NCBI RefSeq assembly: GCF_025602895.1 | Contig: NW_026516219.1 | Span: 1 to 64,000, forward strand | Origin: Polychytrium aggregatum | Taxonomy: Eukaryota > Chytridiomycota > Chytridiomycetes > Polychytriales | DNA: 64,000 nt | Direction of reading: 5' to 3' | Part shown: piece after piece, positions 1 through 21,059 of the stretch | How positions within the stretch are numbered: position 1 is the stretch's first letter | Layout: each line of letters begins with the position of its first letter | Position numbers and translations under genes: made by a program | The notes under the pieces: model-generated | What the model was told of the DNA's origin: nothing | The model's input: only the letters and a program-made list of their open reading frames with translations | The model's database searches: none

Positions 1-62
1 TAAGTGGTTGATGTGGAGACCTGATCAATCGAACCGAAGGTGTTGCGAGACGTCCCCGAGAA

Positions 63-1568: not shown

Positions 1569-1732
1569 GGCGGGACTGGGACTGGGACTGGGAAAAAAAA
1601 AAAAAGCGAGGAGGTTCAAGAACAGGAGAGCGAAGAGGGCTCAGACACAAGTGTGCTTGAGGTTCGGACAGGACTAGGAAAGGGGCGGGGCTAGGAGCGG
1701 AAGATACCAAGCAGGTGGTATCAGTAGAAGAG

Positions 1733-1744
1733 AGTTCGAACAAA
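1733..1744 (-). other. Gypsy-1 self-priming primer-binding site
   Basis: The plus strand reads AGTTCGAACAAA. It recurs in inverted orientation inside the LTR at 1833-1844, where it would be the first 12 nt of the minus-strand mRNA. The site sits one base inside the LTR boundary. No match to a tRNA 3' end (TGG...) is seen here. Tf1-type elements prime reverse transcription by folding the mRNA 5' end back onto the PBS, and this fits that arrangement. Confidence 0.8.
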
Positions 1745-1745
1745 G

Positions 1746-2164
1746 TGTAAGGAGTGAACAAGCGCAAGGACGAAGACCAAGTGCTTGGTATGAGCTTTAT
1801 TAGCTTTTAGCCCCGAACACCAAAGAACAAGTTTTGTTCGAACTGGTGTTCAACATAGGCTCAGACATGCAGGGCTATTTATAGACCGGGAGAAGGTCGA
1901 GGGGCAAAAGTGGGCGAGAAGGGTGGAGCATCACAGAGAAGCGAGAAGGGGGTGCGAGAGTGGCTGGTGTGCAAGCGAGAGAGGCTTGGCACAGCCCGGG
2001 GACATGTGCCGAGCGGTGGGGGAGGCAGGAAACCAGTAGACGCGGGTGGCAACGGCGCGTGCTCATGCATGGGGGCAAACAAACACGTGGGGACTCATGA
2101 TTGGTGCGGAGGGCGAGAGCATGCGGGACAATCTCATTGGTCCGTTGTGATGCTGGTCATCACA
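1746..2164 (-). repeat. Gypsy-1 5' LTR
   Basis: The left end TGTAAG is set by the adjacent PBS; the right end ...ATCACA is set by the abrupt switch to LINE sequence at 2165. The termini are TG/CA with a 3-bp TGT/ACA inverted repeat. It contains a minus-strand TATA box (1876-1883). The other LTR is outside the window, so the right boundary rests on the LINE junction alone. Confidence 0.75.
1876..1883 (-). promoter_or_regulatory. Gypsy-1 LTR TATA box
   Basis: TATAAATA on the minus strand. Its first T lies 39 bp upstream of the A that begins the self-primer complement (1844). The same motif and the same 39-bp spacing occur in Gypsy-2. Confidence 0.7.
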
Positions 2165-4718
2165 GCAAGATAGCGGAGCGCATCCTCCCTCCCGTACCTC
2201 ACAAAGGAAATTGGGACGATGGACATTGTCCAGGGAGGATTCCGACCAGGACGAGGCACGCTCGACCAGGTCTACTCCCTGGACAGCCTGATTCGGATGA
2301 AGAGGCTCCAAGGCTTGAGTACTCCTTGGTGTTCCTGGACATCAAGGCGGCGTACGACACCGTCTGGAGGGAACGCCTGTGGGAAAAAAATCAAAGATAG
2401 AGGAGCAAGCTCGACCGCACTCGGGATCCTCAAGGCGCTGTTTGATAGGACAATGGTGAGAGTCGCCAGCAAGGGACGTCGGTCAGAACCTGTGTGGCTC
2501 CAAAAAGGGCTCATACAGGGATCTGTACTGAGTCCCTTGCTGTTCAGCGCTTTCATCGATGACTTACCAGAGCTCCTGAGACAGGGCACAACCAGCGCCG
2601 ACGAAGACCTAGAGCTCTCAACCAGCACGGTGTCGACAATCAAGGTCAACTCGTTATGGTTCGCCGACGATGGAGTACTTGTCGCAAGTCCAGCTTCGAC
2701 ACAGAAGCTCCTGGATATATGCGAACGACACAGCACCGAAAACAGGTACAAGTTCGCACCAAGCAAATGCGAGATCATCCTCTCGACCAACTACCCCGCC
2801 GCGACCACCAAGGCCACTCTCTACGGAGAAGAGCTGCCGACGGCGAAAGAGTTCAAATACCTTGGAACGATCATCGACGCCAACGGGTTCCGAGTCGATC
2901 GACAAGTCGACCACCTGGTCGAGAAAGCCAACATGGCCGTGAAGAGCATCGTCAAGCTTGGAATCAGGCTCGGAGGAGCGTCTGCAAGGACCATCGTGAG
3001 AACTTACCGAGCCTTCATCAGGCCAAGGCTCGAATACGGCCTGGCACTGGACCTCCTACCCGAGGCACAGCAAGAACGAATCGACAAGGTCCAGACAAAT
3101 GCACTGAGGGCAATGTTCAGAGTCGGCCCTGGGACATCGGCCGGAGCCATGCATCTGAGCTGTGGACTGCCAAAACTGTCCATGAGAATCAAGATCCTGA
3201 CCTTCCAAACCTGGACGAGATGGGAAGACGCGTCCTCCGATCACATCCAAGCTCATAGCACTGATCATGAGAAACACAATCAGACACCCCCACCACCCCA
3301 ACCAATTCCTTGGCTACCAAGTGATGGAAGACCCGTATTGGGTCAAACTAATGCGCAGACTAGACTCGGACCAAAGCCTAACCGCAACCGAGGCCTTCCT
3401 GGGGAAGGAAGGAGCGCAACGGAAACCGACCAGCCCAGTCCCACGATCAACACCAGAACAGATCGAGATCGTCACGGGACTCATCATGGTCCCACTATCC
3501 ACCTCGCAACGACGCAGACGGCTGCTCGGGAACGGGCTCTCCGGGATCACGAGTAGTGAGGAAGGATCCCACAACCGAACAAACCGACAGAAGTACCACC
3601 ACGATGAATGAGGACGCTGTCACCACACCCATCAAGGAGCTCATGCCTCACTGAGCATATGAGAACAGCGTTTCGAGGGAATCAACAGCTGACGGCGGCA
3701 TGCACACCGTCAACCCAGATGTCAGGTCTCTGGATGGCGGAAGGGTACCAAGGATCCAAACCCATCCTCGAGCTCATGGTTCGGTGGAGACTCGGAGCCT
3801 TCCCGGGCCATCACACAGGCCGGCTTCAAATATGCCGACAATGTTCGACAAACGGAGCCACCGTGGAGTTCAACCGCACCCACGCACAGCGGTGCATCGA
3901 CCCAAGAGGGATCCTCCCGAGGAAGGTGCGCCAACTTCAACGATCACACCCAGCATGGGTGGAGCCTCAGACCATCGGAGTGGGACCAGTCGACAAGCTG
4001 CTGGACCTGATCACCTTTGAGCAACAGAAAGCAAGACAGAAGAACCACGAGGACACTGACGGTGGAGCGGATTGCAGGCCACCACCAATCGTGTCCGACA
4101 CCACGTCGGATGGGGAGACCAGCATTGACGAAGCAGTCTCGGATGACGACGGGGAGTCGCTCTGGTACCCACATCGAGAGGTGCTGGCACGACTGGAGCG
4201 ACTCCGGCTGACCGACGACGACTCAACAGACCTGAGCTCCGAAATGAGCTCGGTGCCAGACTGGGAATTGAATCTGGAGAGAGATCTGGACTTTTCCTTC
4301 CTCACCAACATCGACGACGACCTGCCCAGCCACGGATGGGATTGGCAGAGCGACCAGAGTGTCGACTTGCTCTCGAACACAACACCAAGCATCGATCTGA
4401 TCGACGATGCCGATCTGAGCCCGGACCTGGTCTCGGACGACGACCTCGGACTCGGAGACACACCGTTCCCAACGACCAGCAGGAGAGGCAGCCCTCCCCC
4501 CACACGGAGCAATGACAGAGTGACTGGAGTGCTGAGAGGCATGAGGCCACGACAGCGACCCCAACGAACAAAGCCGTGGATGGGCTTTGAGGAGATCCCG
4601 GAGAGGAGCTCCCATGGCCAGAGAGAAAGGGTCCCCGAGCGGGACCTGGAGACATGCGAGTCCCTGTGGGACCTATTGGAGGAAGTGTTCACCCCGCATG
4701 GCTCGCCGTGTGGGCTGG
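2165..4718 (+). mobile_element. LINE unit A, left part (interrupted)
   Basis: Collinear with units B, C and D from codon 140 of their frame (GCAAGATAGCGG) to near the end of the frame, where Gypsy-2 interrupts it at 4718. The remainder resumes at 11138. The left edge is an abrupt junction with the Gypsy-1 LTR. The unit is therefore probably cut by Gypsy-1 rather than truncated during its own insertion, with its 5' part to the left of the window. Confidence 0.9.
2165..4718 (+). pseudogene. LINE unit A reverse transcriptase, multiply frameshifted
   Basis: Very close to the RT proteins of units B to D, but with single-base indels at about 2191 (+C), 2316 (-G), 2390 (+A), 3247 (+C), 3592, 3647 (+C) and 4694 (+C). 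The longest intact piece (about 2390-3250) holds the catalytic FADD motif and the QGSVLSPLLF motif. Most indels fall in short homopolymers, so residual long-read error is an alternative to real decay. Gypsy-2 then interrupts the C-terminal codons. Confidence 0.85.
4714..4718. repeat. Target-site duplication of Gypsy-2, left copy
   Basis: GCTGG directly precedes the left LTR and is repeated directly after the right LTR at 11138-11142. In uninterrupted LINE units this pentamer occurs once (GTGTGGGCTGGAGAG), which confirms that it is a duplication. Confidence 0.95.
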
Positions 4719-5509
4719 TGTTAGAGTCCGAAGGGGACTCAACGGCAAAAGAAGAAGTGAGCTCGAAGTGAGCTCAGGGAAGGCAAGGGTAAAGTCCGAA
4801 GTGGACTCGGAGAGGGAGCGAGGGAAGCAAAGATCCGTTCAAGATAAGACTAGTCTCGAAATGAGACGTGAGGAACACTCAGAGAATAAAGTAGAAGGCA
4901 CTTTATTTAGTCCTATTTTGAACGCTGAGGTTCGACTACACATCGCGGGGGTCAGGCTATTTATAGACAAGTCCGGACTTGGCAGCGAAGGGCGGCCAAG
5001 GGAGGGAAAAGTGGGCGATCGAGCAGGGCGAAGGGGGCGATGCACGAACGAGGGCCGAGAAGGACCACCGAGACAGGCAGAGAACCAAAGCGAGGGAGGC
5101 GCAAGCAAAAGCGAAGCACCTGGCAGGAGAAACGTGCAAAGGCGAAGCAATGTGACTCAACGTCCAAGAAGCGGATTGGTCAAGTATAAGGTTGGGGCAA
5201 ATGCATGCGAGATGAACAAGAGATCGGGGCGGTCAGGCAGGTCATGAGTCACCGGTGGTGGGACACATGACCGGCAGCCGAATTGCAACCAATCGCAGCA
5301 AGGCGCGTGCACAAACAAACCGGCGCGTGCGAAGAAGACAAAGGAAGCGGAGCAGCGCGGGGAAACGGAAGTGCGGAAGGAGCGGAAATGGCAGGCAAAA
5401 GGCGGAAAATTGGAGGGGAACTGCAAAGCTACACACAAACAAACAGAAAGGCAAAAGAACAGCCAAGTGTGCAGTCAAAGTGGAGAACAAGCAGAAGCTA
5501 TCCCTAACA
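4719..5509 (-). repeat. Gypsy-2 3' LTR
   Basis: Starts TGTTAGAG and ends CCCTAACA on the plus strand. No difference from the LTR at 10347-11137 was noticed, which implies recent insertion. It includes a minus-strand TATA box and an AATAAA-like motif. Confidence 0.95.
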
Positions 5510-5523
5510 TCATCCCCTTCCTT
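5510..5523 (-). other. Gypsy-2 polypurine tract
   Basis: On the minus strand this reads AAGGAAGGGGATGA and abuts the 3' LTR. This is the expected position of the RNase H-resistant primer for second-strand synthesis. It overlaps the last codon of the integrase frame. Confidence 0.75.
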
Positions 5524-7051
5524 AGCGACGAACTCCGGGCGTCGCCTTCGGCTTTGAGGGATAGCGAAGGTGGAAGTCAGCAACAAGATCAGTGGCGTGG
5601 GAAACATTGGCAGCGGGCTCCCAAGACCGGTCAGTCTCGGAATAGCCCTTCCACTGAACCAAGTACTGTAAGCGACCACGGAAGAGCCGAGAATCGAGAA
5701 CAGTCTCGACCTCAAACTCTTCCTGGGAGTCAACAAGAATGGGTGGAGGTTCGGGTTGGGTGAACTCGGGAACAATGTCCTTCGTTCGGGGTTCAAGGAG
5801 GGATACATGAAAGACGGGGTGGACTTTGAGTGTGGAAGGGAGTTTAAGTTCAAAGGCAACGGGGTTGATGCGGCGAAGAACTTTAAAGGGGCCAAGCTTT
5901 TTCTGATCAAGCTTGTTGGAGGGACGAAGGGTGCGGATGTGGCGACGATCAAGAAAAACGAGGTCGCCAACGGAGATGTCGGGAGTGGGGAGACGGGATT
6001 TGTTGGCCTGCAAAGTGTAGGACTCTTGGGCAACCCGGAGGTTGGCCTTGAGATCCTCGAGAACGGTCTGAAGTCGGTCGACACGTTCTTCGGCAGAGGG
6101 CACAACAGAAGGATCACGGATGATGGAGGGATCAAAAATGGGGTGATGGCCATGGACTGCAAAGAAGGGAGTCATGCCAGTGGAGGTGTTTTCCGAGTTG
6201 TTGTAAGTGAACTCGGCAAGGGGAAGGTGAAGGGTCCAGTCGTCTTGCAGGTAATTGCAATGGATACGCAAATACTGCTCGATGACCTGGTTGAGAACCT
6301 CGGTCGAACCGTCGGTCTCGGGGTGGAAGGCAGAAGAAAGGGAAATCTTCGTCTTCAGAAGCTCATTGAAGCGCCTCCAGAAGGCCGAAGTAAACTGAGT
6401 TCCTCGGTCCGAAACAATAGACCGGGGACAACCATGCAAGCGGAAGATGTGGGAGAGGAAGAGTTCGGCGGTTTGCTCGCCTGTAACCGTCTTCGTGGTG
6501 GGCACAAAGTGTGCTTGTTTGGACAGGCGGTCCTTAACCACGAAGATGGAGTCAAAGCCGTTCGAAGGTGGGAGATCCGTGATGAAGTCCATCGACAGGT
6601 CCCACCAACGTTCGGAAGGAACGGGGAGAGGGTGAAGTAAACCATAAGGGGAGTGACGGGACGGCTTGGCTCGCTGGCACGCTTCACAATTAGCAATGAA
6701 GCGACGCACAGACTTACGAAGCCGGGGCCAGTGAAAGTCCCGGGAGATGAGCTCAACGGTCTTGGCAAGACCAAAGTGACCAGCGGCAGCGGAGCAGTGA
6801 CGTTGCTCAAACACTTTGAGCTGGAGCTCGGGGGAAGGGACAACGATCAGGTCTTTAAAGTAAAGGAGACCGTCACGGAAGGAGTAATCGCCATCAAGAC
6901 GTTTGGCGTTGAAGTCAGAAAGAAGGGAACAAGAAAGGGTGGCAGCTCGAATCTCGGAAAGAAAAGTCGGGGTTCGAGCCGATAACGGTGATGCTGTCGA
7001 GAGAAATAGACTCGAACAGCTGAAGGAAGTTGGTGGAGTGGAGGGAGTCAC
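5522..7051 (-). pseudogene. pol: Gypsy-2 integrase with C-terminal chromodomain
   Basis: This long frame holds the C-terminal part of pol. An HHCC zinc-binding region comes first (HFGLAKTV ... CEACQR). The DDE core follows, with Asp in MDFITDLP, Asp in VSDRGTQF and Glu in the ETDGSTEVLNQ region. A GPY/F-like stretch (KLGPFKVL) and a chromodomain (YLVQWKGYSETDRSWEP) complete it. The chromodomain keeps the aromatic residues expected of a methyl-lysine cage. The frame itself is intact but is separated by a frameshift around 6950-7050 from the RT/RNase H frame, so the polyprotein cannot be made in one piece. Confidence 0.9.
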
Positions 7052-8508
7052 CAGGCTTTATCTCAAAGTCAGAACGGCGACTGAGAGCATCGGCTTTGGT
7101 GTTGAGGCGACCAGGGCGGTGGTAAATGCGAAAAGCAAAATCAGAAAGGAATTGGGCCCACCGGAACTGGCGGCGAGAAAGTTGGGAAGCGGAAGTGAAC
7201 CGGGTGAGGTTCTGGTGATCAGAGAAAACAAGAGTGGGATGATCGGGGTCGGCAGCCATCAAGTAATGACGCCAGGCAGTAAAGGAATCGACAATAGCAA
7301 GGAGCTCTTTGTCGTGGGTGTCATAATTCACCTCGGCGGGACGGAATTGCCGAGAGTGAAAAGCAACGGGGTGAAGAGCGCCGTCAGGGTCAAACTGGGA
7401 AAGGACGGCACCCAGAGCAAAGTCAGAAGCATCGGGCTCGATGACAGCGGGTTTGGAGAAATCAAAGTAACGAAGAATAGGTGCGGAAGTGAATGAACGT
7501 TTAAGAGAATCAAAAGCCTCTTGGGCCTCGGGAGACCAAGAGAAGGTGGAGGATTTGGTGGTGAGTGAAGTCAAAGGACGAGCAAGTGCGGAAAAGTCCT
7601 TGACGAAGCGGCGGTAAAAGTTTGCGAAACCAATAAAAACTTGGATGTCGCGAGCAGAAGAGGGAACAGGCCAAAGGGAAACGGCCTCGACCTTGGCAGG
7701 GTCCATTTTAATGCCATCGGCAGAAATGATCATGCCGAGAAAGTCAACTTCAGAAAGGTCAAAAGAACACTTGGCCGGATTGACCTTAAGAGAGTGTTCA
7801 CGAAGGCGAGAAAGAACAAGCTTAACATGCTCCTCATGCTCCAGGGGATCTTTTGAGAAGATCAGGATGTCGTCAAGATAAATGACAACACAGACACCAA
7901 GGAGGTCCGAGAAGATGTCGTTCATAAAAAACTGAAAAGCAGCGGGGGCATTCGAAAGACCAAAGGGGATAACATTGTACTCGTAATGAGCCAGATTTGC
8001 AAACAAAAGCAGTCTTCCACTCATCGCCCTTCTTGACACGAACCAAGTGGTAAGCATCAGGAAGGTCAAGGTGTGAGAAGACGCGGGCAGAAGAAAGTTT
8101 ATCCAGAAGATCCTGGAAGAGGGGAAGAGGGTAGCGGTTCTTCTTCGTGATGGCATTGAGGCCCCGGTAGTCGACGCAAAGGCGAAGACCACCATTGGGC
8201 TTCTTCACGAAGAAGCAGGGAGCACCAACGGGAGAAGAGGATTTGGAGATCCAACCACGTGCGAGGGCGTTGGTCAGATACTCCGAAAGAGCAGATTCCT
8301 CGGCCGGGGACAAAGGATAGACTTTCCCCGGCTTTGGCAAACGAGGTTCCTTTCCATCCTCGGTCCGTACAAACTCAATAGACAAGTCATACGGACGGAT
8401 GAGGAGGCAAGGAAGAAGGAGGGTCAGACTTGAGGCTGAAAACGTCGCCAAACTCATTGTATTTGAGCGGGACACCTCGAGAGTCAACAGGGGTGCCAGA
8501 CTCGGCAT
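6915..8508 (-). pseudogene. pol: Gypsy-2 reverse transcriptase and RNase H, frameshifted
   Basis: The N-terminal RT half (7873-8508) has FFVKKPNGGLRLCVDYRGLN and the motif-A region HLDLPDAYH. The C-terminal half (6915-8195) has IPFGLSNAPAAFQ and the catalytic VVIYLDDILIF. It continues into RNase H (DASDFALGAVLSQ, DKELLAIV, VFSDHQNL). The two halves lie in different frames, with one extra base in the region around 8000. Upstream parts of pol lie in further frames. In a functional copy this makes the cDNA and removes the RNA template. Confidence 0.9.
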
Positions 8509-8928
8509 ACACCTTCGTCGTGAGCACGGACCTTATCGACACCGTAGGATACGTCTCCGGCGAAGGAGGACGGATATCCATTTGGGCAGCGAAAATGTCG
8601 AGCTTGTCTTCCCGTGCAAGACGGAGAAGACTCGCCGCATTAACGAGCTCAATGTCGGGCTGAAGATAAAGCCGTTGGCTCTTCAGAAAGCGAAGCAGAG
8701 TCAAGGCGGGAAGAAAGGGAAGGCGAAGTGCCAAAGGAGGGAACCGGTGTAAGGGAAGGACCGGAGGGAGGAGTCAAAGGCGAAGTGCCCGAAGGGGGAG
8801 GCGAAGTAGCCGGAAGGGGACGAAGTGTCCAAGGAAGGAAGCAGAGACATCCGCGAGGATGTGTCCATCAGCAAGGCAAGAGGGATCGGAGAACTGAAAG
8901 GGAGAGGGACTTCCAATTGACAACTGGA

Positions 8929-10275
8929 TTATGCAAGCGCATCCAGGGAAGACCAAGAGTGATGGGAGTGGTGGAGAGTCGAGTCACAAGAAAAGAAATC
9001 GACTCGGTGTGGGAACCAATGGTCAGACGTCACAGGAACGGTTTGGAAACGAATGAAACCGGCCGAAGAACCATCAGCAAGGGAAACGGAGTAAGGAGTA
9101 GAAAGAGGGATAAGAGAGAGTTTATGGAGATCCGCAAAGGCAGGATCAATGAGGGCAAGAGCGGTGCATCCATCATCAATAAAGACAGAAAGGGAGATGG
9201 AGACCGGGCCAGAAAGACTCATGACGACAAGGGTGGCCGGAAGAAGAAGCTTATCGTCCGATAATGACGAGTCAGAGGGGGAAGATGTTCGTATCGCCGA
9301 ACAGACCACCTCGCTTACTTGCGAGGTGCTGCTCGGCTGTGGGCATTTCCCGAGTTCCGTTTGACCAGAACCGGGCACTGCTGAACATCGCGACTGCCGG
9401 GACAAGACTTTTCCCCGCAGTACAAGGCAGAGACCCTGCTCACGACGTCGCTTTTTCTCGACGTCGGAGAGCTTAGCAGGGCGGACCGAGACAGAGTCAA
9501 GGTCCATGGGAGTGGGTGCAGAAGAGGAGGAAGAAGAAACATGCGCGGGAGAATGGTGGTGATGGGGAGCAGAGCGAGAAGAAGGAGGAGGAGGTTGGGA
9601 ACGGGAGGAGATCCTTGAGACGATGGAGGGCATCGTCGTACTCGACCGCTGCCTTGATCAACTCAGGCAGGGAAGCGGGAGCGGGGCGGAGACCGATGAG
9701 GTGGAACTTGACCTCAGACTTCAAACCCTCCTTGAAGAAGTGCATCTTGGTGGGTTCATCAGTCTGGACGCGGGCGGCGAGCTGGACGAAGCGGGTGGCG
9801 AAGGCTTGGCAGGACTTGAGCTGGACCAAGCGCTTGAGGTCGTTCAAGGCCTTATCTTGCGAGGAGGCCGTGTCCTCACCGAAGGTCGACTTGAGGGCAA
9901 CTTCAAAATCCGCGAAGGAAGCCGGGAAGCGGTTGGCCATGTAGAAGGCGGCCTCGTACCACTTGAAAGGCTTCACCGCGGAGGAAGGAGGTGGCAGTAC
10001 AGGACCTTCTGGCGCTCGGGCGCGAAGAAGGCAGGATCGGCGAGGAAAACCGAGGTGGCACTGGGCGAGGAAGGCCGTCGTCTCAGTCGCGGGAACCTAG
10101 GAACTCCTTGGGCTTGTTCACCTGGTAGACCTGGCGGGGAGCGGCGGCGGGAGCTTGCAGATCTTGGATCTGACGATGGAGAGCAGCGTTCTGGGTCATG
10201 AGGGCGTTCATACGCTCCTCCATGCGCGCCAGATACGCAGTTGAGGTCTGCAGGGGGTGCAGCAGGCTCAGCCAT
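8929..10275 (-). pseudogene. gag: Gypsy-2 gag and protease, frameshifted
   Basis: The first in-frame ATG after the PBS is at 10275 (MAEPAAPP). The Gag core lies at about 9600-9976 (FADFEVALKSTFGE ... FATRFVQLAARV), in a different frame from the start. The zinc knuckle is split: LCL in one frame and YCGEKSCPGS in another, around 9430. A retropepsin-like domain follows (about 8929-9250) with FIDDGCTALALID, i.e. D-D-G where D-S/T-G is usual, and then ADGSSAG. At least two frameshifts and a changed protease triad indicate a non-functional copy, unless some shifts are sequencing errors. Confidence 0.8.
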
Positions 10276-10332
10276 CGGATCGACGAGGGAAAGAGAGGCG
10301 AAAGAAGAAGAAAGGCCGGGAAGCCAAGAGGG

Positions 10333-10344
10333 AGCGTTCAAAAT
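10333..10344 (-). other. Gypsy-2 self-priming primer-binding site
   Basis: The plus strand reads AGCGTTCAAAAT, two bases inside the 5' LTR. The same 12 nt occur in inverted orientation in the LTR at 10543-10554, the predicted mRNA 5' end. This is the same architecture as in Gypsy-1 with a different sequence, so the complementarity has been kept while the bases changed. Confidence 0.85.
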
Positions 10345-10346
10345 GA

Positions 10347-11137
10347 TGTTAGAGTCCGAAGGGGACTCAACGGCAAAAGAAGAAGTGAGCTCGAAGTGAG
10401 CTCAGGGAAGGCAAGGGTAAAGTCCGAAGTGGACTCGGAGAGGGAGCGAGGGAAGCAAAGATCCGTTCAAGATAAGACTAGTCTCGAAATGAGACGTGAG
10501 GAACACTCAGAGAATAAAGTAGAAGGCACTTTATTTAGTCCTATTTTGAACGCTGAGGTTCGACTACACATCGCGGGGGTCAGGCTATTTATAGACAAGT
10601 CCGGACTTGGCAGCGAAGGGCGGCCAAGGGAGGGAAAAGTGGGCGATCGAGCAGGGCGAAGGGGGCGATGCACGAACGAGGGCCGAGAAGGACCACCGAG
10701 ACAGGCAGAGAACCAAAGCGAGGGAGGCGCAAGCAAAAGCGAAGCACCTGGCAGGAGAAACGTGCAAAGGCGAAGCAATGTGACTCAACGTCCAAGAAGC
10801 GGATTGGTCAAGTATAAGGTTGGGGCAAATGCATGCGAGATGAACAAGAGATCGGGGCGGTCAGGCAGGTCATGAGTCACCGGTGGTGGGACACATGACC
10901 GGCAGCCGAATTGCAACCAATCGCAGCAAGGCGCGTGCACAAACAAACCGGCGCGTGCGAAGAAGACAAAGGAAGCGGAGCAGCGCGGGGAAACGGAAGT
11001 GCGGAAGGAGCGGAAATGGCAGGCAAAAGGCGGAAAATTGGAGGGGAACTGCAAAGCTACACACAAACAAACAGAAAGGCAAAAGAACAGCCAAGTGTGC
11101 AGTCAAAGTGGAGAACAAGCAGAAGCTATCCCTAACA
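10347..11137 (-). repeat. Gypsy-2 5' LTR
   Basis: 791-bp partner of 4719-5509, ending in TGTTAG/CTAACA and followed by the second GCTGG. As the 5' LTR of a minus-strand element it drives transcription toward lower coordinates. Confidence 0.95.
10586..10593 (-). promoter_or_regulatory. Gypsy-2 LTR TATA box
   Basis: TATAAATA on the minus strand, with its first T 39 bp upstream of the first base of the self-primer complement (10554). The spacing equals that in Gypsy-1, which supports transcription starting at the primer. Confidence 0.7.
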
Positions 11138-11142
11138 GCTGG
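11138..11142. repeat. Target-site duplication of Gypsy-2, right copy
   Basis: GCTGG directly after the 5' LTR, matching 4714-4718. Confidence 0.95.
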
Positions 11143-11270
11143 AGAGTCGGCGAGAGCCGCAACAGGGGCGTGTGAGCCTGCTTGTACGCCCACTGCCGGG
11201 TACCGCATGGTACTGATGGCTTGTTGAATATTCCTGAATATACAACTATTGTAAACAAAAAAAAAAAAAA
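11138..11270 (+). mobile_element. LINE unit A, right part with oligo(A) tail
   Basis: Continues the sequence interrupted at 4718: the last codons of the RT frame (ending in a GTG-TGA at about 11173), the short 3' UTR and an oligo(A) tail of 14 A (11257-11270). It is the same as the corresponding end of units B to D. Unit B begins at the next base. Confidence 0.95.
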
Positions 11271-14200
11271 GAGAGCTCGCGGATGCGTACCAGTTGGATA
11301 GTTCGGACGAGGCACTGGAACGACTAGTGGCCCACTACGGCTCGGTCTCGGCCCATAGCCGAGATACAGGAGAGCAGTACGACCGGACAACCAGACCGGC
11401 AGGGCCAGAGGGAACCCCCCGGCCTCTCACTGAGGACCAGTACCTTCCACAATTCGACATCCAGGACATCATCGCGGCCATCCGGGCGTCCCCCAAGATG
11501 AAGGCCTGTGGGTCAGACAGAATCAAAAGCGAGTTGCTGCACCCAGTGGCACCGGTGCTTGCCGAGTGGCTCCAGATCATCATGAAGGCGGCGGTCAAAG
11601 CTTCGGTTGTCCCCGTGTCGTGGAACGAAGTGTTGATCCACCCCGTGTACAAAAACAAAGGATCAATACTTGACCCGGCAATGTACAGGCCAATCGGATT
11701 GACACAAGTGCTCCGCAAGATAGCGGAGCGCATCCTCCTCCCGTACCTCACAAAGGAAATTGGGACGATGGACATTGTCCAGGGAGGATTCCGACCAGGA
11801 CGAGGCACGCTCGACCAGGTCTACTCCCTGGACAGCCTGATTCGGATGAAGAGGCTCCAAGGCTTGGAGTACTCCTTGGTGTTCCTGGACATCAAGGCGG
11901 CGTACGACACCGTCTGGAGGGAACGCCTGTGGGAAAAAATCAAAGATAGAGGAGCAAGCTCGACCGCACTCGGGATCCTCAAGGCGCTGTTTGATAGGAC
12001 AATGGTGAGAGTCGCCAGCAAGGGACGTCGGTCAGAACCTGTGTGGCTCCAAAAAGGGCTCATACAGGGATCTGTACTGAGTCCCTTGCTGTTCAGCGCT
12101 TTCATCGATGACTTACCAGAGCTCCTGAGACGGGGCACAACCAGCGCCGACGAAGACCTAGAGCTCTCAACCAGCACGGTGTCGACAATCAAGGTCAACT
12201 CGTTATGGTTCGCCGACGATGGAGTACTTGTCGCAAGTCCAGCTTCGACACAGAAGCTCCTGGATATATGCGAACGACACAGCACCGAAAACAGGTACAA
12301 GTTCGCACCAAGCAAATGCGAGATCATCCTCTCGACCAACTACCCCGCCGCGACAACCAAGGCCACTCTCTACGGAGAAGAGCTGCCGACGGCGAAAGAG
12401 TTCAAATACCTTGGAACGATCATCGACGCCAACGGGTTCCGAGTCGATCGACAAGTCGACCACCTGGTCGAGAAAGCCAACATGGCCGTGAAGAGCATCG
12501 TCAAGCTTGGAATCAGGCTCGGAGGAGCGTCTGCAAGGACCATCGTGAGAACTTACCGAGCCTTCATCAGGCCAAGGCTCGAATACGGCCTGGCACTGGA
12601 CCTCCTACCCGAGGCACAGCAAGAACGAATCGACAAGGTCCAGACAAATGCACTGAGGGCAATGTTCAGAGTCGGCCCTGGGACATCGGCCGGAGCCATG
12701 CATCTGAGCTGTGGACTGCCAAAACTGTCCATGAGAATCAAGATCCTGACCTTCCAAACCTGGACGAGATGGGAAGACGCGTCCTCCGATCACATCAAGC
12801 TCATAGCACTGATCATGAGAAACACAATCAGACACCCCCACCACCCCAACCAATTCCTTGGCTACCAAGTGATGGAAGACCCGTATTGGGTCAAACTAAT
12901 GCGCAGACTAGACTCGGACCAAAGCCTAACCGCAACCGAGGCCTTCCTGGGGAAGGAAGGAGCGCAACGGAAACCGACCAGCCCAGTCCCACGATCAACA
13001 CCAGAACAGATCGAGATCGTCACGGGACTCATCATGGTCCCACTATCCACCTCGCAACGACGCAGACGGCTGCTCGGGAACGGGCTCTCCGGGATCACGA
13101 GTAGTGAGGAAGGATCCCACAACCGAACAAACCGACAGAATACCACCACGATGAATGAGGACGCTGTCACCACACCCATCAAGGAGCTCATGCTCACTGA
13201 GCATATGAGAACAGCGTTTCGAGGGAATCAACAGCTGACGGCGGCATGCACACCGTCAACCCAGATGTCAGGTCTCTGGATGGCGGAAGGGTACCAAGGA
13301 TCCAAACCCATCCTCGAGCTCATGGTTCGGTGGAGACTCGGAGCCTTCCCGGGCCATCACACAGGCCGGCTTCAAATATGCCGACAATGTTCGACAAACG
13401 GAGCCACCGTGGAGTTCAACCGCACCCACGCACAGCGGTGCATCGACCCAAGAGGGATCCTCCCGAGGAAGGTGCGCCAACTTCAACGATCACACCCAGC
13501 ATGGGTGGAGCCTCAGACCATCGGAGTGGGACCAGTCGACAAGCTGCTGGACCTGATCACCTTTGAGCAACAGAAAGCAAGACAGAAGAACCACGAGGAC
13601 ACTGACGGTGGAGCGGATTGCAGGCCACCACCAATCGTGTCCGACACCACGTCGGATGGGGAGACCAGCATTGACGAAGCAGTCTCGGATGACGACGGGG
13701 AGTCGCTCTGGTACCCACATCGAGAGGTGCTGGCACGACTGGAGCGACTCCGGCTGACCGACGACGACTCAACAGACCTGAGCTCCGAAATGAGCTCGGT
13801 GCCAGACTGGGAATTGAATCTGGAGAGAGATCTGGACTTTTCCTTCCTCACCAACATCGACGACGACCTGCCCAGCCACGGATGGGACTGGGAGAGCGAT
13901 CCAGAGTGTCGACTTGCTCTCGAACACAACACCAAGCATCGATCTGATCGACGATGCCGATCTGAGCCCGGACCTGGTCTCGGACGACGACCTCGGACTC
14001 GGAGACACACCGTTCCCAACGACCAGCAGGAGAGGCAGCCCTCCCCCCACACGGAGCAATGACAGAGTGACTGGAGTGCTGAGAGGCATGAGGCCACGAC
14101 AGCGACCCCAACGAACAAAGCCGTGGATGGGCTTTGAGGAGATCCCGGAGAGGAGCTCCCATGGCCAGAGAGAAAGGGTCCCCGAGCGGGACCTGGAGAC

Positions 14201-14393
14201 ATGCGAGTCCCTGTGGGACCTATTGGAGGAAGTGTTCACCCGCATGGCTCGCCGTGTGGGCTGGAGAGTCGGCGAGAGCCGCAACAGGGGCGTGTGAGCC
14301 TGCTTGTACGCCCACTGCCGGGTACCGCATGGTACTGATGGCTTGTTGAATATTCCTGAATATACAACTATTGTAAACAAAAAAAAAAAAAAA
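11271..14393 (+). mobile_element. LINE unit B (tandem copy)
   Basis: A 3,123-bp unit that starts GAGAGCTCGCGG right after the tail of unit A and ends in 15 A. Unit structure: a short lead-in, an RT frame, a 3' UTR of about 100 bp and oligo(A). No separate target-site duplication interrupts the unit joints. There is no apurinic-type endonuclease domain ahead of the RT. Confidence 0.95.
11294..14062 (+). pseudogene. LINE unit B reverse transcriptase, C-terminal frameshift
   Basis: Same RT protein as units C and D for about 870 residues. An extra T near 13900 (GAGCGATCCAG against GAGCGACCAG) then shifts the frame and ends it at 14062 with an unrelated tail. The shift lies after the RT core and the C-terminal CCHC motif, so only the acidic C-terminal region is lost. 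The frame is open from the preceding oligo(A) tract and opens with TTG at 11294; the first ATG is at 11498, 68 codons in. Confidence 0.85.
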
Positions 14394-17300
14394 GAGAGCT
14401 CGCGGATGCGTACCAGTTGGATAGTTCGGACGAGGCACTGGAACGACTAGTGGCCCACTACGGCTCGGTCTCGGCCCATAGCCGAGATACAGGAGAGCAG
14501 TACGACCGGACAACCAGACCGGCAGGGCCAGAGGGAACCCCCCGGCCTCTCACTGAGGACCAGTACCTTCCACAATTCGACATCCAGGACATCATCGCGG
14601 CCATCCGGGCGTCCCCCAAGATGAAGGCCTGTGGGTCAGACAGAATCAAAAGCGAGTTGCTGCACCCAGTGGCACCGGTGCTTGCCGAGTGGCTCCAGAT
14701 CATCATGAAGGCGGCGGTCAAAGCTTCGGTTGTCCCCGTGTCGTGGAACGAAGTGTTGATCCACCCCGTGTACAAAAACAAAGGATCAATACTTGACCCG
14801 GCAATGTACAGGCCAATCGGATTGACACAAGTGCTCCGCAAGATAGCGGAGCGCATCCTCCTCCCGTACCTCACAAAGGAAATTGGGACGATGGACATTG
14901 TCCAGGGAGGATTCCGACCAGGACGAGGCACGCTCGACCAGGTCTACTCCCTGGACAGCCTGATTCGGATGAAGAGGCTCCAAGGCTTGGAGTACTCCTT
15001 GGTGTTCCTGGACATCAAGGCGGCGTACGACACCGTCTGGAGGGAACGCCTGTGGGAAAAAATCAAAGATAGAGGAGCAAGCTCGACCGCACTCGGGATC
15101 CTCAAGGCGCTGTTTGATAGGACAATGGTGAGAGTCGCCAGCAAGGGACGTCGGTCAGAACCTGTGTGGCTCCAAAAAGGGCTCATACAGGGATCTGTAC
15201 TGAGTCCCTTGCTGTTCAGCGCTTTCATCGATGACTTACCAGAGCTCCTGAGACAGGGCACAACCAGCGCCGACGAAGACCTAGAGCTCTCAACCAGCAC
15301 GGTGTCGACAATCAAGGTCAACTCGTTATGGTTCGCCGACGATGGAGTACTTGTCGCAAGTCCAGCTTCGACACAGAAGCTCCTGGATATATGCGAACGA
15401 CACAGCACCGAAAACAGGTACAAGTTCGCACCAAGCAAATGCGAGATCATCCTCTCGACCAACTACCCCGCCGCGACCACCAAGGCCACTCTCTACGGAG
15501 AAGAGCTGCCGACGGCGAAAGAGTTCAAATACCTTGGAACGATCATCGACGCCAACGGGTTCCGAGTCGATCGACAAGTCGACCACCTGGTCGAGAAAGC
15601 CAACATGGCCGTGAAGAGCATCGTCAAGCTTGGAATCAGGCTCGGAGGAGCGTCTGCAAGGACCATCGTGAGAACTTACCGAGCCTTCATCAGGCCAAGG
15701 CTCGAATACGGCCTGGCACTGGACCTCCTACCCGAGGCACAGCAAGAACGAATCGACAAGGTCCAGACAAATGCACTGAGGGCAATGTTCAGAGTCGGCC
15801 CTGGGACATCGGCCGGAGCCATGCATCTGAGCTGTGGACTGCCAAAACTGTCCATGAGAATCAAGATCCTGACCTTCCAAACCTGGACGAGATGGGAAGA
15901 CGCGTCCTCCGATCACATCAAGCTCATAGCACTGATCATGAGAAACACAATCAGACACCCCCACCACCCCAACCAATTCCTTGGCTACCAAGTGATGGAA
16001 GACCCGTATTGGGTCAAACTAATGCGCAGACTAGACTCGGACCAAAGCCTAACCGCAACCGAGGCCTTCCTGGGGAAGGAAGGAGCGCAACGGAAACCGA
16101 CCAGCCCAGTCCCACGATCAACACCAGAACAGATCGAGATCGTCACGGGACTCATCATGGTCCCACTATCCACCTCGCAACGACGCAGACGGCTGCTCGG
16201 GAACGGGCTCTCCGGGATCACGAGTAGTGAGGAAGGATCCCACAACCGAACAAACCGACAGAGTACCACCACGATGAATGAGGACGCTGTCACCACACCC
16301 ATCAAGGAGCTCATGCTCACTGAGCATATGAGAACAGCGTTTCGAGGGAATCAACAGCTGACGGCGGCATGCACACCGTCAACCCAGATGTCAGGTCTCT
16401 GGATGGCGGAAGGGTACCAAGGATCCAAACCCATCCTCGAGCTCATGGTTCGGTGGAGACTCGGAGCCTTCCCGGGCCATCACACAGGCCGGCTTCAAAT
16501 ATGCCGACAATGTTCGACAAACGGAGCCACCGTGGAGTTCAACCGCACCCACGCACAGCGGTGCATCGACCCAAGAGGGATCCTCCCGAGGAAGGTGCGC
16601 CAACTTCAACGATCACACCCAGCATGGGTGGAGCCTCAGACCATCGGAGTGGGACCAGTCGACAAGCTGCTGGACCTGATCACCTTTGAGCAACAGAAAG
16701 CAAGACAGAAGAACCACGAGGACACTGACGGTGGAGCGGATTGCAGGCCACCACCAATCGTGTCCGACACCACGTCGGAGGGGGAGACCAGCATTGACGA
16801 AGCAGTCTCGGATGACGACGGGGAGTCGCTCTGGTACCCACATCGAGAGGTGCTGGCACGACTGGAGCGACTCCGGCTGACCGACGACGACTCAACAGAC
16901 CTGAGCTCCGAAATGAGCTCGGTGCCAGACTGGGAATTGAATCTGGAGAGAGATCTGGACTTTTCCTTCCTCACCAACATCGACGACGACCTGCCCAGCC
17001 ACGGATGGGATTGGCAGAGCGACCAGAGTGTCGACTTGCTCTCGAACACAACACCAAGCATCGATCTGATCGACGATGCCGATCTGAGCCCGGACCTGGT
17101 CTCGGACGACGACCTCGGACTCGGAGACACACCGTTCCCAACGACCAGCAGGAGAGGCAGCCCTCCCCCCACACGGAGCAATGACAGAGTGACTGGAGTG
17201 CTGAGAGGCATGAGGCCACGACAGCGACCCCAACGAACAAAGCCGTGGATGGGCTTTGAGGAGATCCCGGAGAGGAGCTCCCATGGCCAGAGAGAAAGGG

Positions 17301-17514
17301 TCCCCGAGCGGGACCTGGAGACATGCGAGTCCCTGTGGGACCTATTGGAGGAAGTGTTCACCCGCATGGCTCGCCGTGTGGGCTGGAGAGTCGGCGAGAG
17401 CCGCAACAGGGGCGTGTGAGCCTGCTTGTACGCCCACTGCCGGGTACCGCATGGTACTGATGGCTTGTTGAATATTCCTGAATATACAACTATTGTAAAC
17501 AAAAAAAAAAAAAA
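14394..17514 (+). mobile_element. LINE unit C (tandem copy)
   Basis: A 3,121-bp unit with the same first base as units B and D, ending in 14 A. Nearly identical to B and D over its length; differences are scattered single bases. Confidence 0.95.
14417..17419 (+). CDS. LINE reverse transcriptase, unit C (1000 codons, 5' open)
   Basis: Non-LTR reverse transcriptase. Motifs by residue: YRPIGLTQVL (131-140), GGFRPGRGTLDQV (164-176), motif A LDIKAAYD (198-205), motif B GLIQGSVLSPLLF (255-267), catalytic FADD (306-309), KCEIILS (341-347) and KYLGTIID (371-378). A thumb-like helical region follows, then a CX2CX12HX3C finger (C696, C699, H712, C716) and an Asp/Ser-rich C-terminus. The frame is open from the upstream oligo(A) without an ATG and begins formally at a TTG; the first ATG is residue 69 (14621). 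No endonuclease domain precedes the RT, so the protein is either N-terminally truncated or from an endonuclease-less element. The exact clade needs a phylogeny. Confidence 0.9.
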   Translation: MDSSDEALERLVAHYGSVSAHSRDTGEQYDRTTRPAGPEGTPRPLTEDQYLPQFDIQDIIAAIRASPKMKACGSDRIKSELLHPVAPVLAEWLQIIMKAAVKASVVPVSWNEVLIHPVYKNKGSILDPAMYRPIGLTQVLRKIAERILLPYLTKEIGTMDIVQGGFRPGRGTLDQVYSLDSLIRMKRLQGLEYSLVFLDIKAAYDTVWRERLWEKIKDRGASSTALGILKALFDRTMVRVASKGRRSEPVWLQKGLIQGSVLSPLLFSAFIDDLPELLRQGTTSADEDLELSTSTVSTIKVNSLWFADDGVLVASPASTQKLLDICERHSTENRYKFAPSKCEIILSTNYPAATTKATLYGEELPTAKEFKYLGTIIDANGFRVDRQVDHLVEKANMAVKSIVKLGIRLGGASARTIVRTYRAFIRPRLEYGLALDLLPEAQQERIDKVQTNALRAMFRVGPGTSAGAMHLSCGLPKLSMRIKILTFQTWTRWEDASSDHIKLIALIMRNTIRHPHHPNQFLGYQVMEDPYWVKLMRRLDSDQSLTATEAFLGKEGAQRKPTSPVPRSTPEQIEIVTGLIMVPLSTSQRRRRLLGNGLSGITSSEEGSHNRTNRQSTTTMNEDAVTTPIKELMLTEHMRTAFRGNQQLTAACTPSTQMSGLWMAEGYQGSKPILELMVRWRLGAFPGHHTGRLQICRQCSTNGATVEFNRTHAQRCIDPRGILPRKVRQLQRSHPAWVEPQTIGVGPVDKLLDLITFEQQKARQKNHEDTDGGADCRPPPIVSDTTSEGETSIDEAVSDDDGESLWYPHREVLARLERLRLTDDDSTDLSSEMSSVPDWELNLERDLDFSFLTNIDDDLPSHGWDWQSDQSVDLLSNTTPSIDLIDDADLSPDLVSDDDLGLGDTPFPTTSRRGSPPPTRSNDRVTGVLRGMRPRQRPQRTKPWMGFEEIPERSSHGQRERVPERDLETCESLWDLLEEVFTRMARRVGWRVGESRNRGV

Positions 17515-20500
17515 GAGAGCTCGCGGATGCGTACCAGTTGGATAGTTCGGACGAGGCACTGGAACGACTAGTGGCCCACTACGGCTCGGTCTCGGCCCAT
17601 AGCCGAGATACAGGAGAGCAGTACGACCGGACAACCAGACCGGCAGGGCCAGAGGGAACCCCCCGGCCTCTCACTGAGGACCAGTACCTTCCACAATTCG
17701 ACATCCAGGACATCATCGCGGCCATCCGGGCGTCCCCCAAGATGAAGGCCTGTGGGTCAGACAGAATCAAAAGCGAGTTGCTGCACCCAGTGGCACCGGT
17801 GCTTGCCGAGTGGCTCCAGATCATCATGAAGGCGGCGGTCAAAGCTTCGGTTGTCCCCGTGTCGTGGAACGAAGTGTTGATCCACCCCGTGTACAAAAAC
17901 AAAGGATCAATACTTGACCCGGCAATGTACAGGCCAATCGGATTGACACAAGTGCTCCGCAAGATAGCGGAGCGCATCCTCCTCCCGTACCTCACAAAGG
18001 AAATTGGGACGATGGACATTGTCCAGGGAGGATTCCGACCAGGACGAGGCACGCTCGACCAGGTCTACTCCCTGGACAGCCTGATTCGGATGAAGAGGCT
18101 CCAAGGCTTGGAGTACTCCTTGGTGTTCCTGGACATCAAGGCGGCGTACGACACCGTCTGGAGGGAACGCCTGTGGGAAAAAATCAAAGATAGAGGAGCA
18201 AGCTCGACCGCACTCGGGATCCTCAAGGCGCTGTTTGATAGGACAATGGTGAGAGTCGCCAGCAAGGGACGTCGGTCAGAACCTGTGTGGCTCCAAAAAG
18301 GGCTCATACAGGGATCTGTACTGAGTCCCTTGCTGTTCAGCGCTTTCATCGATGACTTACCAGAGCTCCTGAGACAGGGCACAACCAGCGCCGACGAAGA
18401 CCTAGAGCTCTCAACCAGCACGGTGTCGACAATCAAGGTCAACTCGTTATGGTTCGCCGACGATGGAGTACTTGTCGCAAGTCCAGCTTCGACACAGAAG
18501 CTCCTGGATATATGCGAACGACACAGCACCGAAAACAGGTACAAGTTCGCACCAAGCAAATGCGAGATCATCCTCTCGACCAACTACCCCGCCGCGACCA
18601 CCAAGGCCACTCTCTACGGAGAAGAGCTGCCGACGGCGAAAGAGTTCAAATACCTTGGAACGATCATCGACGCCAACGGGTTCCGAGTCGATCGACAAGT
18701 CGACCACCTGGTCGAGAAAGCCAACATGGCCGTGAAGAGCATCGTCAAGCTTGGAATCAGGCTCGGAGGAGCGTCTGCAAGGACCATCGTGAGAACTTAC
18801 CGAGCCTTCATCAGGCCAAGGCTCGAATACGGCCTGGCACTGGACCTCCTACCCGAGGCACAGCAAGAACGAATCGACAAGGTCCAGACAAATGCACTGA
18901 GGGCAATGTTCAGAGTCGGCCCTGGGACATCGGCCGGAGCCATGCATCTGAGCTGTGGACTGCCAAAACTGTCCATGAGAATCAAGATCCTGACCTTCCA
19001 AACCTGGACGAGATGGGAAGACGCGTCCTCCGATCACATCAAGCTCATAGCACTGATCATGAGAAACACAATCAGACACCCCCACCACCCCAACCAATTC
19101 CTTGGCTACCAAGTGATGGAAGACCCGTATTGGGTCAAACTAATGCGCAGACTAGACTCGGACCAAAGCCTAACCGCAACCGAGGCCTTCCTGGGGAAGG
19201 AAGGAGCGCAACGGAAACCGACCAGCCCAGTCCCACGATCAACACCAGAACAGATCGAGATCGTCACGGGACTCATCATGGTCCCACTATCCACCTCGCA
19301 ACGACGCAGACGGCTGCTCGGGAACGGGCTCTCCGGGATCACGAGTAGTGAGGAAGGATCCCACAACCGAACAAACCGACAGAGTACCACCACGATGAAT
19401 GAGGACGCTGTCACCACACCCATCAAGGAGCTCATGCTCACTGAGCATATGAGAACAGCGTTTCGAGGGAATCAACAGCTGACGGCGGCATGCACACCGT
19501 CAACCCAGATGTCAGGTCTCTGGATGGCGGAAGGGTACCAAGGATCCAAACCCATCCTCGAGCTCATGGTTCGGTGGAGACTCGGAGCCTTCCCGGGCCA
19601 TCACACAGGCCGGCTTCAAATATGCCGACAATGTTCGACAAACGGAGCCACCGTGGAGTTCAACCGCACCCACGCACAGCGGTGCATCGACCCAAGAGGG
19701 ATCCTCCCGAGGAAGGTGCGCCAACTTCAACGATCACACCCAGCATGGGTGGAGCCTCAGACCATCGGAGTGGGACCAGTCGACAAGCTGCTGGACCTGA
19801 TCACCTTTGAGCAACAGAAAGCAAGACAGAAGAACCACGAGGACACTGACGGTGGAGCGGATTGCAGGCCACCACCAATCGTGTCCGACACCACGTCGGA
19901 TGGGGAGACCAGCATTGACGAAGCAGTCTCGGATGACGACGGGGAGTCGCTCTGGTACCCACATCGAGAGGTGCTGGCACGACTGGAGCGACTCCGGCTG
20001 ACCGACGACGACTCAACAGACCTGAGCTCCGAAATGAGCTCGGTGCCAGACTGGGAATTGAATCTGGAGAGAGATCTGGACTTTTCCTTCCTCACCAACA
20101 TCGACGACGACCTGCCCAGCCACGGATGGGACTGGGAGAGCGACCAGAGTGTCGACTTGCTCTCGGACACAACACCAAGCATCGATCTGATCGACGATGC
20201 CGATCTGAGCCCGGACCTGGTCTCGGACGACGACCTCGGACTCGGAGACACACCGTTCCCAACGACCAGCAGGAGAGGCAGCCTTCTCCCCACACCGAGC
20301 AGTGACAGAGCGACTGGGGCGCTCAGGGCCACGAGGCCACGACAGCGACCCCAACGAACAAAGCCGTGGATGGGCTTTGAGGAGATCCCGGAGAGGAGCT
20401 CCCATGGCCAGAGAGAAAGGGTCCCCGAGCGGGACCTGGAGACATGCGAGTCCCTGTGGGACCTCTTGGAGGAAGTGTTCACCCGCATGGCTCGCCGTGT

Positions 20501-20637
20501 GGGCTGGAGAGTCGGCGAGAGCCGCAACAGGGGCGTGTGAGCCTGCTTGTACGCCCACTGCCGGGTACCGCATGGTACTGATGGCTTGTTGAATATTCCT
20601 GAATATACAACTATTGTAAACAAAAAAAAAAAAAAAA
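17515..20637 (+). mobile_element. LINE unit D (last tandem copy)
   Basis: A 3,123-bp unit ending in 16 A, followed by unique sequence. It starts at the same base as B and C. A patch near its 3' end (about 20283-20340) carries roughly a dozen substitutions relative to A to C, while the rest is almost identical. Confidence 0.95.
17538..20540 (+). CDS. LINE reverse transcriptase, unit D (1000 codons, 5' open)
   Basis: Intact frame of the same length as unit C, with all RT motifs (FADD at residues 306-309) and the C-terminal CX2CX12HX3C finger. It differs mostly in the acidic tail, where a diverged patch changes several residues. Like C it lacks an upstream ATG (first ATG at 17742) and lacks an endonuclease domain. 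Whether it can be translated in this context is unknown. Confidence 0.9.
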   Translation: MDSSDEALERLVAHYGSVSAHSRDTGEQYDRTTRPAGPEGTPRPLTEDQYLPQFDIQDIIAAIRASPKMKACGSDRIKSELLHPVAPVLAEWLQIIMKAAVKASVVPVSWNEVLIHPVYKNKGSILDPAMYRPIGLTQVLRKIAERILLPYLTKEIGTMDIVQGGFRPGRGTLDQVYSLDSLIRMKRLQGLEYSLVFLDIKAAYDTVWRERLWEKIKDRGASSTALGILKALFDRTMVRVASKGRRSEPVWLQKGLIQGSVLSPLLFSAFIDDLPELLRQGTTSADEDLELSTSTVSTIKVNSLWFADDGVLVASPASTQKLLDICERHSTENRYKFAPSKCEIILSTNYPAATTKATLYGEELPTAKEFKYLGTIIDANGFRVDRQVDHLVEKANMAVKSIVKLGIRLGGASARTIVRTYRAFIRPRLEYGLALDLLPEAQQERIDKVQTNALRAMFRVGPGTSAGAMHLSCGLPKLSMRIKILTFQTWTRWEDASSDHIKLIALIMRNTIRHPHHPNQFLGYQVMEDPYWVKLMRRLDSDQSLTATEAFLGKEGAQRKPTSPVPRSTPEQIEIVTGLIMVPLSTSQRRRRLLGNGLSGITSSEEGSHNRTNRQSTTTMNEDAVTTPIKELMLTEHMRTAFRGNQQLTAACTPSTQMSGLWMAEGYQGSKPILELMVRWRLGAFPGHHTGRLQICRQCSTNGATVEFNRTHAQRCIDPRGILPRKVRQLQRSHPAWVEPQTIGVGPVDKLLDLITFEQQKARQKNHEDTDGGADCRPPPIVSDTTSDGETSIDEAVSDDDGESLWYPHREVLARLERLRLTDDDSTDLSSEMSSVPDWELNLERDLDFSFLTNIDDDLPSHGWDWESDQSVDLLSDTTPSIDLIDDADLSPDLVSDDDLGLGDTPFPTTSRRGSLLPTPSSDRATGALRATRPRQRPQRTKPWMGFEEIPERSSHGQRERVPERDLETCESLWDLLEEVFTRMARRVGWRVGESRNRGV

Positions 20638-21059
20638 TCAGGGCACGCTGCCTGGTGTCGGATCGAGGGAGGATGGTCTTGGTGCCAGGGAAGGCTGGTG
20701 GCTTGCTGCCTGCTTTCTTCGGTACCATGTGGCGAGGGATGGTCTGGGTCGCGCTCGCCAGCTATGGTTGCAGAACGAGTATCGATTGTGAATGTCGAGT
20801 TGTCGTTGTCGAGTCATCGGATGTTCTCTCAGTCGATCAACATCAGCAATTGTTATGGGACAGCACTATTGTATATTGTATGTATTGAATCTATCGAATA
20901 TCAAATACAACATCACTCGGCCATTGCTGCTTCATCAAGTACACCTAACCTAATCCACACTTTGGAATCATGGTGTCTGATGGGTGACGGCGGTGCAATT
21001 TGGTTGAATGTTGGATGTGGTAGCTTATTACTTTGGGAGTGGAACTCAAGGGATCAGGG
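20638..21059. other. Gap between the LINE array and host genes
   Basis: About 420 bases of unique sequence after the last oligo(A). No gene, repeat or convincing target-site duplication was recognised. It marks the change from transposon-dense to gene-dense DNA. Confidence 0.6.

Follow-up and report, generated by a model that had tools for sequence, protein, structure and literature searches.

Long interspersed nuclear elements (LINEs) that seek telomeres have arisen several times, and both fungal cases that we found, MoTeR and FoTeR, are members of the group with a restriction-like endonuclease. Here we analyse a head-to-tail array of 5'-truncated LINE units in a window that comprises bases 1–64000 of contig C79 (892,257 bp), from a genome of 64.7 Mb in 418 contigs. 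The LINE family of the window is termed E1 and two further, related families are termed E2 and E3, the last of which is represented by a fragment; U coordinates give positions in the 3,121-bp array unit. We suggest that the E1/E2 arrays work like MoTeR and HeT-A combined, and we assign them to neither.

MoTeR1 and MoTeR2 of Pyricularia (Magnaporthe) oryzae are described as LINEs that lie in telomere repeats in head-to-tail arrays whose units are set apart by short telomere tracts, and the same accounts tell of array growth by break-induced replication, of a long terminal repeat (LTR) element inserting in arrays and of vestiges inland (PMC7367193, PMC8381367). As far as those accounts go, the present arrays are alike in having LINEs at telomere repeats, head-to-tail order and LTR insertion, and differ in that tandem MoTeRs are there always separated by TTAGGG, whereas many LINE–LINE joints here carry no telomere repeat. 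FoTeR of Fusarium oxysporum is reported as a telomere-associated LINE with telomere repeats (TAACCC) at its 3' junction and tandem repeats upstream, in a report that also places MoTeR1 and FoTeR in one restriction-like-endonuclease clade with Cnl1, SLACS and CRE (PMC12857005). With both, the present families share a 3' end joined to telomere repeats (every E2 joint read, one marginal E1 case, see below), and ~20-bp tandem repeats in the E2 5' region resemble those given for FoTeR. The telomere repeat differs from that reported for FoTeR (TTAGG here), as does the endonuclease from that of both: E1 and E2 have one of the apurinic/apyrimidinic (APE) type and not a restriction-like one, as judged by the endonuclease domain and by the nearest solved reverse transcriptase (RT), LINE-1 and then R2. 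MoTeR1 is the element given for fungi in a 2023 list of telomere-associated elements (PMC10088271), and among the papers listed in our searches of the open-licence literature there was no earlier report of an APE-type telomeric LINE in a fungus.

TRAS and SART are insect elements of the R1 clade, whereas E1 and E2 are known by their nearest solved structure, LINE-1 ORF2p, and not by clade. The TRAS/SART endonuclease is of the APE type. In Bombyx mori these LINEs are described as residing in TTAGG/CCTAA telomeres, with TRAS inserting into the CCTAA strand (PMC7265360). On that description E2 shares with them the TTAGG/CCTAA target with oligo(A) at the joint (A-CCTAACC). HeT-A, TART and TAHRE of Drosophila have eroded 5' ends. 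They are reported as several families mixed head-to-tail, with poly(A) toward the centromere (PMC5537684). Within the bounds of that report the likeness extends to head-to-tail order at chromosome ends, 3' ends inward and truncated 5' ends, with the inland and inward exceptions given below; Drosophila, however, has lost telomerase, whereas TERT and TTAGG tracts are present here and the LINEs do not replace telomerase. Zepp of Chlorella and Coccomyxa forms nested LINE clusters that had earlier been reported at chromosome termini, and the Coccomyxa assembly is described as having one cluster per chromosome, mostly internal (PMC3446292); both systems have truncated copies that abut the oligo(A) of another copy, but the present arrays lie at tips. 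Finally, GilM and GilT of Giardia, which are protist elements, are described as one-direction head-to-tail arrays between subtelomere and telomere, with some 5' truncations (PMC5537684), and in these traits the present arrays resemble them. An independent APE-type case in a TTAGG genome with telomerase would show that the same end state has been reached by another LINE lineage and, with telomere–LINE and LINE–LINE joints side by side, the hand-over between telomerase and LINE addition is open to study in one genome.

The array in the window and the origin of its unit

We confirm that the window holds a head-to-tail array of LINE units that is not due to chance. The + strand has GAGAGCTCGCGG at three positions only, 11271, 14394 and 17515, in each case immediately after an oligo(A) tract (11257–11270, 14379–14393 and 17501–17514), and units B, C and D (3,123, 3,121 and 3,123 bp; mutually 99.5–99.8% alike) thus start at the identical base directly past the oligo(A) of the preceding unit, as a preliminary description of this DNA had held; the last unit, D, closes with A16 (20622–20637). 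Units C and D each contain a single 1,000-aa frame with an RT domain (Table 1), and a domain search of the unit frames gave no match to an endonuclease domain.

The 3.1-kb unit is a cut-down E1 copy. E1 copies on C20, C224, C386 and C195 extend 5' past the array boundary, and the 150 bases displayed upstream of it are identical in C20, C224 and C195 and differ by one base in C386. In the C20 copy, the one of these four that was tested for an endonuclease, one 1,471-codon stop-to-stop frame carries the endonuclease PF03372 (2.8e-15) N-terminal to RVT_1 (2.1e-28), and the nearest solved structure is human-type LINE-1 ORF2p (2.6e-23), followed by R2 (1.3e-11). The boundary falls inside open reading frame 2 (ORF2), ~130 codons ahead of the RT match, and is read through by the four longer copies, so that we rejected the 3.1-kb unit as a complete element, an option which the preliminary description had left standing. 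Its other option, a truncated copy tandemly duplicated as DNA, is supported for the window array. Elsewhere, E1 copies after oligo(A) begin at six other points, and among the matches listed there is no copy starting at U1 outside C79 and C301; since the same start is found at three C79 joints and one on C301, against six other starts elsewhere, copying as DNA is called for, and the shared 5' boundary is most likely that of a single truncated copy which was multiplied in this way. Longer copies with an endonuclease, which had been taken in advance to make this a plain duplication of one truncated copy, do exist (C20), but the setting is not thereby ordinary.

E1 and E2 are APE-type LINEs, each with an Exo_endo_phos endonuclease and RVT_1 in a single frame. 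A long E2 copy on C358, which starts with CCCTGACACATCG, spans ~6.35 kb and has two open frames, one of 762 codons and a second of 1,238 codons that contains the endonuclease (1.7e-13) and the RT (3.1e-24); its 5' region ahead of the first frame shows a run of ~20-bp tandem repeats. Comparison of E1 and E2 ORF2 gave 51.8% identity over 1,204 aligned positions, with a dN of 0.42 and a dS of 1.48; these values, which are approximate and close to saturation, suggest that protein constraint has acted on both.

Alignments of single-nucleotide polymorphisms (SNPs), which display substitutions and no insertions, indicate that the units are mosaics. Throughout U1–2617 the bases of C are those of D with the one exception of U2387; A begins at U445 and agrees with D up to U2617, save for a gap at U596. 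Across U2770–2818 there are eleven sites at which the D alleles are common to C224, C195, C386, C397, C2 and C377, the other alleles being those of A, B, C and an extra unit on C301, and also of C20, C323, C38 and C193, with C408 mixed; B has C20/C224 alleles at 862, 1085 and 1870 and D alleles at 2618 and 2622. This pattern is consistent with recombination, without proving it. Unit divergence was also tried as a clock and decided little, the array units being about as far from one another as from copies elsewhere.

Unit A is interrupted by two LTR elements. The outer one runs off the contig start and cuts unit A at 2165, with a GCAAG target duplication whose second copy is visible on C301, and therefore unit A's own 5' end lies outside the window; the inner one has LTRs of 794 bp each (BLAST, 4716–5509 and 10344–11137) and a 5-bp target duplication, GCTGG. 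The C301 tip carries unit A, both LTR insertions and the end of one further upstream unit, with the joint A13|GAGAGCTCGCGG; if C79 and C301 are copies of one array, that array has at least five units and four identical boundaries. The second tip copy (C301:431812–443047, against window 1–6218) is ~99.7% alike, and C301 stops following C79 at the far edge of the LTR element, so that the parting reflects a haplotype, an exchange or a misjoin.

Telomere joints and orientation at contig ends

The telomere repeat of this genome is TTAGG: C323 ends in ~400 bp of TTAGG/CCTAA and the C39 and C40 tips carry it too. TTAGGG was rejected as the motif (0 matches of four repeats). A TERT domain is encoded on C408 and the chitin synthase N-terminal domain, a fungal mark, has 13 matches in the genome, and we therefore take the host to be a fungus with telomerase. 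Several of the chitin synthase matches form equal-scoring pairs on separate contigs, as would be expected if the assembly were diploid and partly phased.

E2 is joined directly to telomere repeats. The pattern A8-CCTAACCTAACC has 38 exact matches genome-wide, against 1 for the reversed control, and the E2 3' end was found at all 23 of the sites read. Within the DNA fetched, 56 oligo(A) joints were classed, of which 23 lead into telomere repeat (one of them CCTAACC alone), 23 into a LINE that runs the same way (E1 in 12 cases, with 7 different starts, E2 in 9 and E3 in 2) and 10 into other DNA, the telomere share being inflated by the choice of loci and copies on paired contigs being counted apart. 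Past the joint there are 4 to 11 CCTAA units, followed by a truncated LINE, other DNA or CCCTGACACATCG. Ahead of CCCTGACACATCG (10 places) there are exactly five CCTAA in 6 and two such blocks split by CCCTGACCCTGA in 4; this fixed number may reflect either a tract that is part of E2 or common descent of the ends.

The C323 tip reads, from outside in, telomere, truncated E2, E2 from 3708, E2 from 3708, E2 from 5552, an E3 fragment and E1 from ~U1606, and then DNA without a forward match to E1–E3. These are six 5'-truncated LINEs whose joints are all oligo(A), with no telomere repeat between LINEs, and E2 there shows varied truncations together with one repeated boundary. At the tips of both C323 and C40 telomere repeats abut truncated E2, and on C195 a 10-nt remnant of the E2 3' end lies between two LINEs. 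The G-strand reads AGGG before TTAGG at the C323 and C40 tips, on C212, on C20 at 20.6 kb and at the E2 start, and this may be where telomerase started; AGGG is not present at three joint types (C374/C182; C207/C38; C39/C207/C38/C224). CCCTGA (TCAGGG on the other strand) recurs within and at the start of telomere tracts on C40, C358, C239 and C284, perhaps as a telomerase start or a variant unit.

Some joints are periodic. On C374 (34568–50121) and C182 (30855–36052) they are spaced exactly 5,178 bp, the C374 unit that was read consisting of ~4.5 kb without E1/E2 match, a 636-bp E2 3' end, oligo(A) and (CCTAA)4. On C207 (6121–26245) oligo(A)–telomere joints alternate at ~2,810 and ~2,955 bp in a two-unit higher-order repeat, and both of these joint types recur on C38.

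Orientation was scored on contigs of at least 75 kb for copies within 65 kb of an end. Such copies are present at 10 contig ends for E1 (at least 98% identity), 15 for E2 and 9 for oligo(A)–telomere joints, and in the pooled set all 23 contig ends scored, from 22 contigs, have the 5' ends pointing outward (1.2e-7 by coin toss, although the two haplotypes of one arm may in some cases have been scored as separate ends). Internal arrays cut by the assembler would show both orientations, and we argue that the arrays are at tips. The preliminary description had asked whether such arrays lie near telomeres or centromeres and had likened them to HeT-A/TART and Zepp; the likeness holds up elsewhere in the genome, where members of three LINE families, variously truncated, meet at oligo(A) and one family joins telomere repeats directly. 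In 44 contig-end stretches inspected, which come from contigs picked for carrying E1 or E2 and so do not give a genome-wide rate, there was an E2 match in 15 (13 outward, 2 inward) and a telomere tract in 3. The short contig C214 (30,750 bp) has E2 in both orientations, contrary to the general rule.

Proposed building of the chromosome ends and competing explanations

We think it likely that the array and its setting result from LINEs at chromosome ends, from healing by telomerase and from exchange that was break-induced or unequal. The window would be the tip of a chromosome arm in a probable fungus with TTAGG telomeres, with E1, E2 and E3 LINEs being added at chromosome ends. To judge by the joints, cDNA synthesis would be primed at the end of the G-strand or at a nick in it, which would set the oligo(A) toward the interior and the 5' end outward. 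Between additions the ends would erode into the outermost LINE; healing of an eroded end by telomerase would then leave telomere joined to a truncated LINE, and its use for another LINE would leave oligo(A) joined to a truncated LINE. Both joint types are seen; the order of events is inferred. Later, an E1 copy truncated at U1 beside another E1 copy would have been multiplied by unequal exchange or break-induced replication, either of which would keep the oligo(A)|U1 joint and combine the 5' part of D with the 3' part of the distal copy; thus a break in the distal unit, repaired by invasion of D and outward copying, could yield the D 5' part, the fixed joint and the distal 3' part. The fixed boundary, together with the mosaic pattern of the SNPs, leads us to favour amplification by exchange. 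Unit A has also received two LTR insertions. More tentatively, and with somewhat less than an even chance of being right, telomerase and several APE-type LINE families may jointly build the ends, LINEs attaching to eroded ends with or without telomere repeats, and E2 may carry (CCTAA)5 at its own 5' end and so bring a telomere seed with each full-length copy.

Several observations weigh against this explanation by end addition. The start of C79 has no telomere repeat, so that its status as a tip rests on the genome-wide pattern, and there are three E1 rows of at least 98% that are inland and inward (C377 and, twice, C394), an E2 row on C375 that lies 461 kb inland, and ten diverged E1 rows, 4 of them inward (of five ends that these reach within 65 kb, 3 are all outward). 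Both inward E2 stretches at contig ends lie on contigs of <31 kb (C286 and C214). E1 oligo(A) is beside CCTAACC once, on C2, with fewer than two repeats, a marginal case, and telomere joining, which is directly seen for E2, is suggested for E1 by its company and place. Further, no array-private allele was found in the SNP table, and common descent of the units is thus not proved by SNPs. Finally, end addition is hard to tell apart from insertion into oligo(A).

The latter process is the essence of Zepp-like nesting, in which newcomers enter the oligo(A) of older copies by ordinary target-primed reverse transcription and are 5'-truncated, and chromosome ends have no direct role. LINE–oligo(A)–truncated LINE joints in three families with varied truncations are what it expects, and APE-type endonucleases, such as those of E1 and E2, nick T/A-rich sites; but it predicts neither the 38 sites at which oligo(A) meets telomere repeats, nor the telomere repeats abutting truncated E2 at the C323 and C40 tips, nor the uniformly outward 5' ends at the scored contig ends, and we regard it as unlikely. 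Satellite-like tandem duplication, in which a single truncated LINE copy was simply multiplied and its telomere location is incidental, would account for the fixed boundary and near-equal unit lengths, and it fits the presence of longer copies, one with an endonuclease, and the exact periods on C374 and C207. Such duplication covers units A–D, but it leaves unexplained the joints between families, those with telomere repeats and the orientation rule, and being insufficient genome-wide it is quite unlikely as the whole explanation.

An assembly artefact, in which the assembler repeated one unit, has in its favour that repeat-rich contig tips are error-prone and that the C79 and C301 tips agree and then diverge at the LTR edge. 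The units, however, are distinguished by ordered blocks of SNPs, which makes a simple assembly repeat unlikely, the A|U1 joint is found again on a second contig (C301) and a repeated boundary occurs in E2 as well, at the C323 tip; we therefore hold an artefact to be very improbable. Identical boundaries on C79 and C301 could also be expected if the short unit were a real element with a 5' terminus of its own that retrotransposed repeatedly to the same place, yet the reading through of the boundary within ORF2 by four longer copies, and the confinement of U1 starts to C79 and C301 among the matches listed, largely refute this idea, to which we give next to no weight. End addition with later exchange remains our preferred explanation.

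Features of the window

The features of the window, including predicted frames inward of the array, are given in Table 1.

Table 1. Array units, inserted elements and inner neighbours in the 64,000-bp window
Feature	Position	Strand	Details
Partial Ty3-type LTR retrotransposon, gag ORF 597-1619	1..2164	-	Retrotrans_gag 8e-12, Ty3_capsid 3.4e-7
Unit A, 5' piece	2165..4718	+	U445-2993; 99.5% to B, 99.7% to C, 99.1% to D
Chromodomain Ty3-type LTR retrotransposon in unit A	4719..11137	-	RT/RNaseH, integrase and chromo domains; LTR pair and termini
Unit A, 3' piece with A14	11138..11270	+	100% to U2989-3121
Unit B, 5'-truncated LINE E1 with A15	11271..14393	+	Frame 922 aa, shorter than C and D frames
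Unit C, 5'-truncated LINE E1 with A14	14394..17514	+	RT frame 14417-17419, RVT_1 5.6e-29
Unit D, innermost 5'-truncated LINE E1 with A16	17515..20637	+	RT frame 17538-20540, RVT_1 5.6e-29
DNA inward of array	20638..20960		One CCTAACCTAA at 20944-20953
Sel1-repeat frame	21738..22781	-
Sel1-repeat frame	24182..25009	+
GRAM-domain frame	33488..37339	-
DUF7783 frame	59624..61057	+

The CCTAACCTAA just inward of the array, which is in telomere orientation and ~300 bp inside it, is the sole pair of telomere units found in the window and is possibly a telomere vestige.

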